From Alphaproteobacteria bacterium (GTDB lineage Bacteria > Pseudomonadota > Alphaproteobacteria > UBA8366 > Aestuariispiraceae): a DNA stretch of 64,000 nucleotides. The stretch is taken from contig JAWPMN010000001.1 of assembly GCA_033344895.1 (NCBI GenBank), positions 1,116,001 to 1,180,000 on the forward strand, given 5' to 3'. Below are positions 28,552 through 30,717 of this stretch, in pieces; the first letter of the stretch is position 1, and each line of letters opens with the position of its first letter. The position numbers and the translations under genes are program-made. The notes under the pieces are model-generated. The model worked only from the letters and a program-made list of their open reading frames with translations. It made no database searches and had not been told where the DNA came from.

Positions 28552-29748
28552 TCAGGCGTGTTCCTCGATCGGGTCCGCACGCAGCACCACCAGGGCCGCA
28601 AGCAACGAAATCACGGACGCACCCAGCATCAGGATGAGCAGGCCCGGCGCGGCATTTTGCGGGGTCAGCAGAACACCGGCCAGGGTCGACAGAACCGCGC
28701 CGGTACCGACGGTCATCGCCCCGGACAGACCCGCCGCGCTTCCGGCCAGGCTGGGGTTGACCGACATGATACCGGCATTGCTGCTGGGGTTGGTGATGCC
28801 ATTGCCGATCCCGACGCAGATCGTTGCCGCGAAATACAGCAGCGGATCGACGATCCCGGCCAGAACCAGTGCCAGCCCGACGCCCAGCCCGGCACAGGCA
28901 ATCAGGCGGCCCGCCACCATCATTCCCGCCAGCGGAAAACGCGACGAAAACCGCCCGGACAGAAAGCTGCCGAACAGAAAGCCGCCAGTAATCGAACCCA
29001 TGCAGATCCCAAGGACCGAGGGCGACATGCCGAAATGCGCGACCGCGACCAGCGGGACGCCGGCCAGGAAGGTGAAGAAGGCACCGATGGAAAACGCCGA
29101 GCAGCAGGCAAAACCCCAGAATCGGCGCGACCCGAGGACCGTCGGATAGGTCCGGAACTGGCTGAGGAAGGAACGGGACCGATTGCGGTTGGTTTCCCGC
29201 ATATCCATCCAGCAGACGACCAGCAGGACCGCCCCCGCCCCGGCATAAAAAAGAAAGTTCGAGCGCCAGCCGAACGTCTCGTCCAGTACGCCGCCGATCA
29301 GCGGGCCGGTCATCGGCATGACGGCCATGGCCATGCTGATGAAGCCCAAGCGGCTGGCGGCGTCTCGCGGTCCGAACGTGTCACGCACCACAGACAGGGA
29401 GATACCCCACCCTGCGACGATCACCCCCTGCAGCATTCGGAAGGCCAGAAACGTCTCGACATCATCCGTGGTCGCGCAAATCAGCGACGCGGCCAGAAAT
29501 ATCGCAAGTGCCGCCAGAATCACCGGCCGCCGCCCGAACCTGTCCGACAAAGGCCCGATCACCAGTTGCAGCCCCGCGGTCACCGCCAGATAGCCGGAAA
29601 TGGCAAAACTGATCGCCGCGTAATCCACGTTGAAATGCCGGGCCATGCCGGCAAGCGACGGCAGGAACATGTTCAGCGACAGGGTCGACAGCGCCGTCAA
29701 GGCGACCAGCGTTGCGAAACGGGGCGGGTTTGTGGCGGCATGCGGCAT
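28552..29748 (-). CDS. Bcr/CflA-type multidrug MFS exporter
   Basis: This is a 398-residue twelve-helix transporter of the DHA1 family. The loop 2-3 motif GPLSDRFGRRPV and the stretch MPMTGPLIGGVLDETFGWR identify the Bcr/CflA drug-export group. The ATG at 29748 is preceded by GGAAA. Its 5' leader contains a short ORF with a good ribosome site and an intrinsic terminator, which suggests that expression depends on read-through. Confidence 0.92.
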   Translation of the reverse strand: MPHAATNPPRFATLVALTALSTLSLNMFLPSLAGMARHFNVDYAAISFAISGYLAVTAGLQLVIGPLSDRFGRRPVILAALAIFLAASLICATTDDVETFLAFRMLQGVIVAGWGISLSVVRDTFGPRDAASRLGFISMAMAVMPMTGPLIGGVLDETFGWRSNFLFYAGAGAVLLVVCWMDMRETNRNRSRSFLSQFRTYPTVLGSRRFWGFACCSAFSIGAFFTFLAGVPLVAVAHFGMSPSVLGICMGSITGGFLFGSFLSGRFSSRFPLAGMMVAGRLIACAGLGVGLALVLAGIVDPLLYFAATICVGIGNGITNPSSNAGIMSVNPSLAGSAAGLSGAMTVGTGAVLSTLAGVLLTPQNAAPGLLILMLGASVISLLAALVVLRADPIEEHA

Positions 29749-29781
29749 TGGATTTCCAATTGGCGGGGCAGACGAAAGGCG

Positions 29782-29808
29782 AAAAAAAACCTCCGACAGG
29801 ATCGGAGG
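29782..29808 (-). terminator. Intrinsic terminator in the exporter leader (candidate attenuator)
   Basis: On the minus strand CCTCCGA and TCGGAGG form a perfect seven-pair stem around a five-base loop, followed by eight T residues. It lies 33 bases before the exporter start and 24 bases after the leader ORF stop. It could also end the ubiG transcript, which stops about 155 bases upstream. Confidence 0.85.
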
Positions 29809-29832
29809 CGCAGACCGGACAGGCAGGGCCCG

Positions 29833-29880
29833 TTATCGGTCCATGCGCCTGCTTCCCACGAGTACGACACCAGTATTCAT
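29833..29880 (-). CDS. Leader peptide ORF upstream of the exporter
   Basis: This 15-codon ORF encodes MNTGVVLVGSRRMDR. AAAGGGG lies eight bases before the ATG. It fits between the ubiG stop and the terminator that precedes the exporter. The arrangement (short translated ORF, intrinsic terminator, drug-efflux gene) is that of known antibiotic-responsive attenuators, in which ribosome stalling on the leader prevents termination. No explicit anti-terminator pairing was found by eye, so the mechanism is inferred. Confidence 0.5.
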   Translation of the reverse strand: MNTGVVLVGSRRMDR

Positions 29881-29964
29881 GGACAAAACCCCTTTCTGCA
29901 TCGGGCAGCGCCGATCAGCGGCATCAACGCTATCACGGCTGGTGGTGGCGGGGAACGGAAAGTC

Positions 29965-30717
29965 CTATCGGGGTTTGACCGCAAACGCGAGATAGTTCAC
30001 GGCGACGTCGCGCGGGGCGAGGTGGAATTCGTCCCTTACCGGGCTGTAAGCCATGCCGCACAGGTCGGAAATCTCCATGCCTGTGGGACGCAATCCGGCC
30101 GCCAGTTCGGACGGCTTGACGAATTTCCGCCAGTTATGGGTGCCCCTCGGCAGCCAGCGCAGAATGTATTCCGCTCCGACGATCCCCATCGCAAAGGACT
30201 TTGCCGTCCGATTGAAGGTCGAAAGAGCCATCGCGCCGCCCGGCCGGACCAGCGCCGCGGCATCGGCCAGGAAGCCATGCAGGTCTGCGACATGCTCGAC
30301 CACTTCCATGTTGATCACGGCGTCGAACTGCGCCCCTTCCTCCACCAGCTCGTCCGCGGTGGCGTGGCGGTAGCGGATGTCGAGGCCCATCCGCTCCGCA
30401 TGGTTCAGAGCGATGTCGATCGATCGACCGGTGGCATCGACACCGGTGACATCCGCCCCCAAACGGGACAGCGGCTCGCAGATCAGGCCGCCACCGCAAC
30501 CGATATCGCAGACCTTCAGACCGGCCAGCGGCTTTGGCTTCAGCGGATCGCGACCGAACCGCGCGCATAACCGGTCGCGGATATAGCCGATGCGGACCGG
30601 ATTCAGCATGTGCAGCGGCTTGAATTCGCCCTCGGCGTCCCACCACTGGTCGGCAATGGCGGCGAATTTCTCGATTTCGTCCGGATCGACGGTCGCTGTG
30701 GCTGTTTTCGCTGTCAT
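29965..30717 (-). CDS. ubiG: Ubiquinone biosynthesis O-methyltransferase UbiG
   Basis: This 250-residue SAM-dependent enzyme catalyses both O-methylations in ubiquinone synthesis. It has the SAM motif VCDIGCGGGLICEPL and the UbiG-specific stretches ADQWWDAEGEFKPLHMLNP and GTHNWRKFVKPSEL. It diverges from lysC, with 150 bases between the starts. Confidence 0.96.
   Translation of the reverse strand: MTAKTATATVDPDEIEKFAAIADQWWDAEGEFKPLHMLNPVRIGYIRDRLCARFGRDPLKPKPLAGLKVCDIGCGGGLICEPLSRLGADVTGVDATGRSIDIALNHAERMGLDIRYRHATADELVEEGAQFDAVINMEVVEHVADLHGFLADAAALVRPGGAMALSTFNRTAKSFAMGIVGAEYILRWLPRGTHNWRKFVKPSELAAGLRPTGMEISDLCGMAYSPVRDEFHLAPRDVAVNYLAFAVKPR

Follow-up and report, generated by a model that had tools for sequence, protein, structure and literature searches.

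Leader peptides through which drugs induce resistance genes are known from bmrB, lmo0919, cmlA and erm, and in Escherichia coli the leader of ilvBN, ivbL, is rich in valine. The ilvBN/ilvIH attenuator of Caulobacter crescentus is outlined as a leader with tandem isoleucine and valine codons and a terminator before the acetolactate synthase genes (Tarleton et al. 1994, cited in PMC4117421), and this terminator is said, in the same outline, to open at low tRNA charging (PMC4117421). In Sinorhizobium meliloti, as summarized in PMC7298713 and PMC10117765, peTrpL and rnTrpL act in trans on multidrug-resistance genes.

Here we describe a leader that precedes a Bcr/CflA-type transporter gene in a 64,000-nucleotide stretch of alphaproteobacterial DNA (the window). 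With a probability of roughly 0.84, the leader controls the transporter by ribosome-mediated transcription attenuation, with the charging of valyl-tRNA as its signal and that of the isoleucine and leucine tRNAs as a lesser one. Judged from sequence comparison, the pump is probably controlled by the supply of valine and not by antibiotics. A literature search, lying mostly outside subscription papers, returned no account of such a leader on this transporter.

The leader and transporter in the window

The 216 bases between the end of ubiG (29965) and the start of the transporter gene (29748), all on the minus strand, contain a 15-codon open reading frame (ORF) with a ribosome binding site and then a terminator with eight T, as the initial annotation correctly described (Table 1). 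The codons of the ORF are ATG AAT ACT GGT GTC GTA CTC GTG GGA AGC AGG CGC ATG GAC CGA TAA. The terminator is formed by CCTCCGA-tcctg-TCGGAGG (29808-29790), with seven perfect pairs and a G-T, followed by the T run at 29789-29782. Only 33 nt separate the last T from the transporter ATG, and a promoter between terminator and exporter, for which the initial annotation had allowed, does not fit in this space. A perfect small hairpin, ATTGG-AAAT-CCAAT (29747-29760), overlies the start of the transporter gene together with its ribosome site and is absent from the sister genome G004.

Table 1. Features of the ubiG-transporter region, in window positions
Feature	Position	Strand	Basis
ubiG, upstream neighbour	29965..30717	-	NCBIfam TIGR01983, 275.1 bits (cut-off 102.95)
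Candidate leader promoter, TTCCCC (29955-29950), 17 nt, TAGCGT (29932-29927)	29927..29955	-	candidate by motif; weak
Ribosome binding site of leader ORF, AGAAAGGGG, 8 nt spacer to ATG	29889..29897	-	sequence
Leader ORF, 15 codons, MNTGVVLVGSRRMDR, stop included	29833..29880	-	similar ORFs before orthologs
Control codons GTC GTA CTC GTG (Val Val Leu Val), codons -11 to -8	29857..29868	-	valine share in leader sets
Pairing strand A, AGGCGCATGGACCG, within the RRMDR codons	29837..29850	-	folds with B; conserved complementarity
Pairing strand B, CGGTCTGCGCCT, overlapping the first bases of the terminator stem	29806..29817	-	folds with A; conserved complementarity
Intrinsic terminator with eight T	29782..29809	-	pattern search; stem 95.0% paired over 34 leaders
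Bcr/CflA-type MFS transporter, 398 aa	28552..29748	-	TIGR00710; Pfam MFS_1

The transporter scores 208.7 bits against TIGR00710 (cut-off 200.9) and also matches Pfam MFS_1; two orthologs that were checked, L122 and L125, narrowly miss the TIGR00710 cut-off. Its relatives in NCBIfam include an importer (FslD) and the nucleoside transporter PunC. The direction of the family is probably export, a reading based on the motif GPxxGG, which we take to be of the antiporter type.

The window alone does not set these elements apart from chance. Terminator-like patterns between 29000 and 31500 numbered 2, compared with 2.5 in shuffled sequences, and the stretch between ubiG and the transporter folded no better than its shuffles (z -0.41), so it is conservation that allows the leader ORF and terminator to be counted as real. 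At the gathering score, no Rfam family matched the window or any of 16 leader loci. The best sub-threshold Rfam match, Atu_C8 (E 0.21), was discarded: it had no match in the window genome, and 3 of 58 genomes gave weak matches, none of them over the cut-off.

Of 48 transporter leaders, 32 are preceded within 110 nt by a promoter-like site scoring at least 8 of 12, a score reached in 25% of mono-shuffled sequences; these sites often take the form TTGAC-N17-TAGC.T. The corresponding site in the window, TTCCCC-N17-TAGCGT, scores 6 of 12 and falls within a block that is also kept in the sister genome G004; a stricter promoter setting found none at the window leader. We consider this site a candidate leader promoter.

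Conservation of the leader before transporter orthologs

Among 59 genomes, the window's included, all of the six closest orthologs of the transporter (89 to 54% identity) except L005 carry a similar leader. The leader peptide, compared across orthologs as the initial annotation had suggested, is conserved in kind. A scan of the genome collection recovered 80 transporter orthologs, mostly from Alphaproteobacteria, and a first screen by eye and pattern identified leaders at 34 of them. The covariance model R1 was built from transporter leaders only, namely 32 of these 34, the window leader and L007. It matches 35 of the 80 orthologs with E below 1e-7; 32 of the 35 are training sequences, and the other three (L085, L091 and L111) are new with respect to the first screen. 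With two gammaproteobacterial leaders recognized by eye, L038 and L041, the total is 37 of 80, and by R1 and eye the remaining 43 orthologs have no recognized leader.

L038 and L041 differ in sequence from the other leaders but follow the same logic. Their peptides are rich in valine, with longer valine runs (CVIAVVVVSVVVRVRLSP and FVVVVTVVESLMLSP, respectively), and the pairing strand that reaches the 5' arm of the terminator is another one, located around the stop codon. Because their pairing strands differ, both were excluded from the alignment and the counts; the counts also predate the discovery of L085, L091 and L111 and do not include these. A further leader before a transporter, L213 (MTFKFVSDVASKRRMVR by eye), has a broken valine run and was excluded from the composition counts.

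On a quick tree of 81 transporters, presence of the leader needs 15 changes, compared with 27 to 29 in three shuffles. The leader has been gained or lost repeatedly among these transporters. A search of the phylum matched 13 of 299 genomes, all in the class of the window, and says little about range because the number of the 299 outside that class is not listed. A strict pattern search (RMDR, stop and partner strand) proved too narrow, returning only the window among 385 genomes.

The 14 largest clusters of neighbouring genes include no recurrent neighbour of leader-bearing transporters, and neighbour genes were accordingly dropped as a hint to the substrate. Two clusters that do contain leader-bearing loci lie, by position, opposite the transporter itself (shadow frames), and the other 12 contain only loci labelled as lacking a leader, by labels that predate L085, L091 and L111. 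A cluster of 13 loci concerns the leaderless ortholog L090 and similar Shimia/Roseobacter loci (by eye, for example L053, L061, L064, L071 and L077), where the transporter directly follows a conserved gene and may therefore be co-transcribed with it. At L090, the frame of that gene, which by eye resembles AsmA, ends 12 nt before the transporter. The record of one ortholog, L032 (CP051228.1), carries the name Mesoflavibacter (Bacteroidota). This name is probably wrong: the transporter shares 88% identity with that of the window, and the genome looks like G004, which belongs to the genus of the window.

Taken from the window only, the terminator could be an ordinary one belonging to ubiG, with a chance ORF in front of it and a transporter that has its own start signals. 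The unremarkable fold and a terminator pattern no commoner than in shuffles suit that account, but conservation contradicts it: the whole unit recurs before transporter orthologs whose other neighbours do not recur, and in the aligned leaders only 20-75 nt lie between the T run and the start of the transporter match, which is too little for a promoter in most of them. We therefore give this account hardly any credence.

The same leader precedes ilvI

A search with R1 of 385 genomes of the class gave matches in 26 genomes at E 0.01 or better, 15 of them below 1e-7. Of these 15 matches, 11 precede transporter orthologs and four precede ilvI, the gene for the large subunit of acetolactate synthase. 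Four of the 11 transporter sites, including that of the window, are training sequences of R1, and none of the four ilvI sites is. The weaker matches (14 places, E 6.8e-4 to 0.0093) and the loci L230 and L231 showed no such leader ORF by eye and were left unused.

The leader is far more frequent in the order of genome G064 (probably Rhodobacterales, although this is a guess), where R1 matches 178 of 195 genomes with 188 matches in total. Downstream of the 92 matches inspected, we found ilvI in 82 cases, the transporter in eight and plain terminators in two. Apart from the four ilvI sites already counted in the class search, the 29 best loci comprise 28 ilvI and one transporter site, a further 13 from genomes with two hits comprise ten ilvI and three transporter sites, four second matches all precede transporters, and 40 sites taken from the listed matches all precede ilvI. 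Two weak second matches in this order (E 7.3e-5) are not leaders.

Combining the 15 sites of the class search with 86 further distinct sites of the G064 order gives 101 checked sites, with ilvI downstream of 82 and the transporter downstream of 19. Four ilvI genes were called by NCBIfam and the others by the motif G[YF]PGG or by eye; transporter calls were confirmed by tblastn with the window protein. In eight genomes (G610, G549, G599, G601, G447, G537, G585 and G525), the leader occurs before both ilvI and the transporter. The window genome has one strong R1 site, the leader described here, and its next match has E 0.008. Upstream of ilvI in the window genome and 29 relatives (L147-L176), no valine leader was found in the approximately 240 nt screened. 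The region upstream of ilvI is long in these genomes and often has a promoter-like TTGACC...TATTGT.

Control codons point to valine

In 48 transporter leaders, valine occupies 126 of the 192 positions at codons -11 to -8 and 22 of the 288 at codons -6 to -1; in 42 ilvI leaders, the corresponding figures are 117 of 168 and 1 of 252. The ilvI leaders also have leucine at codon -12 in 29 cases and isoleucine at codon -9 in 26, so that the run is mostly Leu-Val-Val-Ile-Val. These counts suggest that the ilvI leader reads leucine, valine and isoleucine, the full set of pathway products, and that the transporter leader reads mostly valine, the amino acid encoded by most of its control codons. No single residue of the valine run is strictly kept, and 4 of the 48 transporter leaders have only one valine in codons -12 to -7. 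All four valine codons are used in the transporter set (GTC 64, GTA 34, GTG 31 and GTT 4), which indicates that the amino acid is what is kept.

Rare control codons fit attenuators that read codons, and GTA is rare in these genes, where it makes up 4 to 5% of valine codons. It accounts for 20 of 94 valine codons in 32 transporter leaders and 39 of 856 in the transporter genes that these leaders precede (Fisher 1.4e-7), and for 42 of 98 in ilvI leaders and 43 of 1075 in ilvI genes (n=32; Fisher 1.3e-26), in tests that take related leaders as independent. Without codon -8, and with all 48 transporter and 42 ilvI leaders set against those genes, the values are 4.6e-6 and 1.4e-16. At codon -8 itself (29859-29857 in the window), valine is encoded by GTA or GTG in 30 of 33 transporter leaders and 35 of 38 ilvI leaders. 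GTC, common at other valine positions, is found there in only 2 of 33 transporter leaders, and this position may thus be under an RNA constraint.

The initial annotation proposed that drugs aimed at the ribosome arrest it while it makes the leader peptide, so that termination fails and the exporter is switched on. This was the reading we weighed first, and it was dropped once R1 matched ilvI. The layout and the exporter family are suited to it, and valine and isoleucine are found in hydrophobic stretches of known drug-stall peptides. Some translation inhibitors might even raise read-through as a side effect, because slowed translation before strand A would leave that strand free. The leader is, however, not confined to resistance or efflux genes: at 82 of the 101 checked sites it precedes a biosynthesis gene not known for drug resistance. 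Enrichment of a rare valine codon in a run without any strictly kept residue points to the codons rather than the peptide. Nor does the suggested stall sequence, SRRMDR, behave as one, since codons -5 to -2 vary in amino acid (for example RRMD, RCMV, RRLG, GSVV and RRRA) with A:B pairing mostly kept, as expected of an RNA pairing strand. Codon -2 encodes glycine in 40 of 42 ilvI leaders, and aspartate (19), valine (12) or glycine (9) in the 48 transporter leaders. Conservation thus supports leader-peptide attenuation of the transporter, whereas the leader family shared with ilvI (in eight genomes alongside the transporter), the conserved valine run and the GTA enrichment leave the antibiotic signal unsupported, and we consider it improbable.

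RNA pairing and the proposed mechanism

Strand A, which spans codons -5 to -2, pairs with strand B, located just before the terminator stem and overlapping it. No long-range helix other than A:B persists in the majority of 87 leaders. A set of 90 leaders has 92.2% of its A:B cells paired, more than any of 2000 shuffles (maximum 92.1%), and nine cells are changed on both sides, compared with a shuffle mean of 1.6; strand B was placed in this test by a script rule that by eye is wrong in at least one row (L075). The 34-leader alignment gave a less clear result: between 23 and 134 of 500 shuffles equalled the A:B measures of the real leaders, while sliding the partner strand lowered pairing from 88.7% to at most 58.2%. 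RNAalifold on the same 34 leaders returned only the terminator. A hairpin around the stop codon, AUGG:CCAU, was no better than shuffles, although it was above its slid versions.

Equilibrium folding, tried as proof of antitermination, speaks mostly against it. With strand A free, A:B captures the terminator base in 2 of 33 leaders, that of the window being one (0.75), and the complete terminator is favoured in the other 31. Averaged over the 33 leaders, A:B wins 0.17 and the terminator core still forms (0.96); the average is low because A:B and the terminator have only three bases in common. While a ribosome waits on the leader, the nascent RNA of L038 and L041 is predicted to fold so that much of the 5' arm of the terminator is occupied, a larger overlap than these three bases, although the complete RNA again folds into the terminator. 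Antitermination would therefore require kinetic folding, that is, a dependence on the order of events during transcription.

We propose that transcription starts upstream of the leader and that the outcome depends on where the leader ribosome stands. If codon -9 occupies the A site, a ribosome with a footprint of the generally known size would shield the transcript to roughly the last base ahead of strand A; standing at the stop codon, it would shield A itself. When charged valyl-tRNA is plentiful, the ribosome would reach the stop codon and cover A (the RRMDR codons), B would remain free, the terminator would be completed and transcription would stop before the transporter. When charged valyl-tRNA is short, the ribosome would wait in the valine run with its leading edge ending about at the start of A, and A would pair with B. 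This pairing would take apart the foot of the terminator stem, where it adjoins the T run, and allow RNA polymerase to read into the transporter gene, so that the transporter would be made when valine is short.

The same attenuator could also release a leader peptide or small RNA that acts in trans. The action of peTrpL/rnTrpL in the alphaproteobacterium Sinorhizobium meliloti, as outlined in PMC7298713 and PMC10117765, is a precedent, but action in cis already explains the conserved features, and we consider an additional role in trans very unlikely. A valine-reading attenuator acting on the transporter, of the kind described for Caulobacter ilvBN, is the best reading.

It is the leader that suggests a link between the transporter and valine metabolism. 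The transporter could bring in valine, or expel something that causes a shortage of valine. We lean, with some reserve, towards the broader view that this clade, annotated as multidrug exporters, is part of the regulon for branched-chain amino acids, connected to it by an RNA attenuator that reads valine and was either copied from ilvI or is shared with it. The natural substrate of these transporters would then have to do with valine: valine itself, a keto acid, a dipeptide containing valine, or some metabolite or toxin that leaves the cell short of valine. In that case, RNA attenuators could serve to assign substrates to orphan families of drug exporters.

Comparison with known systems

The leaders of bmrB, lmo0919, cmlA and erm resemble that of the window in placing a leader ORF before an exporter or resistance gene. 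In those systems the signal is a drug on the ribosome, whereas the window leader is common to a gene of amino-acid biosynthesis. A leader ORF and terminator before an exporter therefore need not mean antibiotic sensing, and it was comparison with the same leader elsewhere that changed the reading of the signal from drug to valine.

In E. coli, emrD, a relative of the window transporter, is the nearest large gene on the other side of ivbL-ilvBN (L275, MG1655 3849000-3857000). Unlike the window transporter it is divergent, with istR, tisB and ysdE between it and ivbL, and we know of no attenuation of emrD. Its position near ivbL-ilvBN may be chance.

The closest counterpart of the transporter leader is the ilvI leader in the order of G064. 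By R1, the two are alike in codon layout, strands A and B, terminator and spacing, and they differ in the run, mostly Leu-Val-Val-Ile-Val compared with mostly valine, and in the glycine usual at codon -2 of the ilvI leader. Set against the Caulobacter ilvBN/ilvIH attenuator, which we compare by its description in PMC4117421 and not by its sequence, the target here is a transporter, and its leaders are nearly confined to valine. The proposed switch is of a known kind on an unexpected kind of gene, and what is new is the probable link of a putative drug exporter to valine status. Control of such a pump by an amino-acid sensor offers a lead on the natural role of these exporters.
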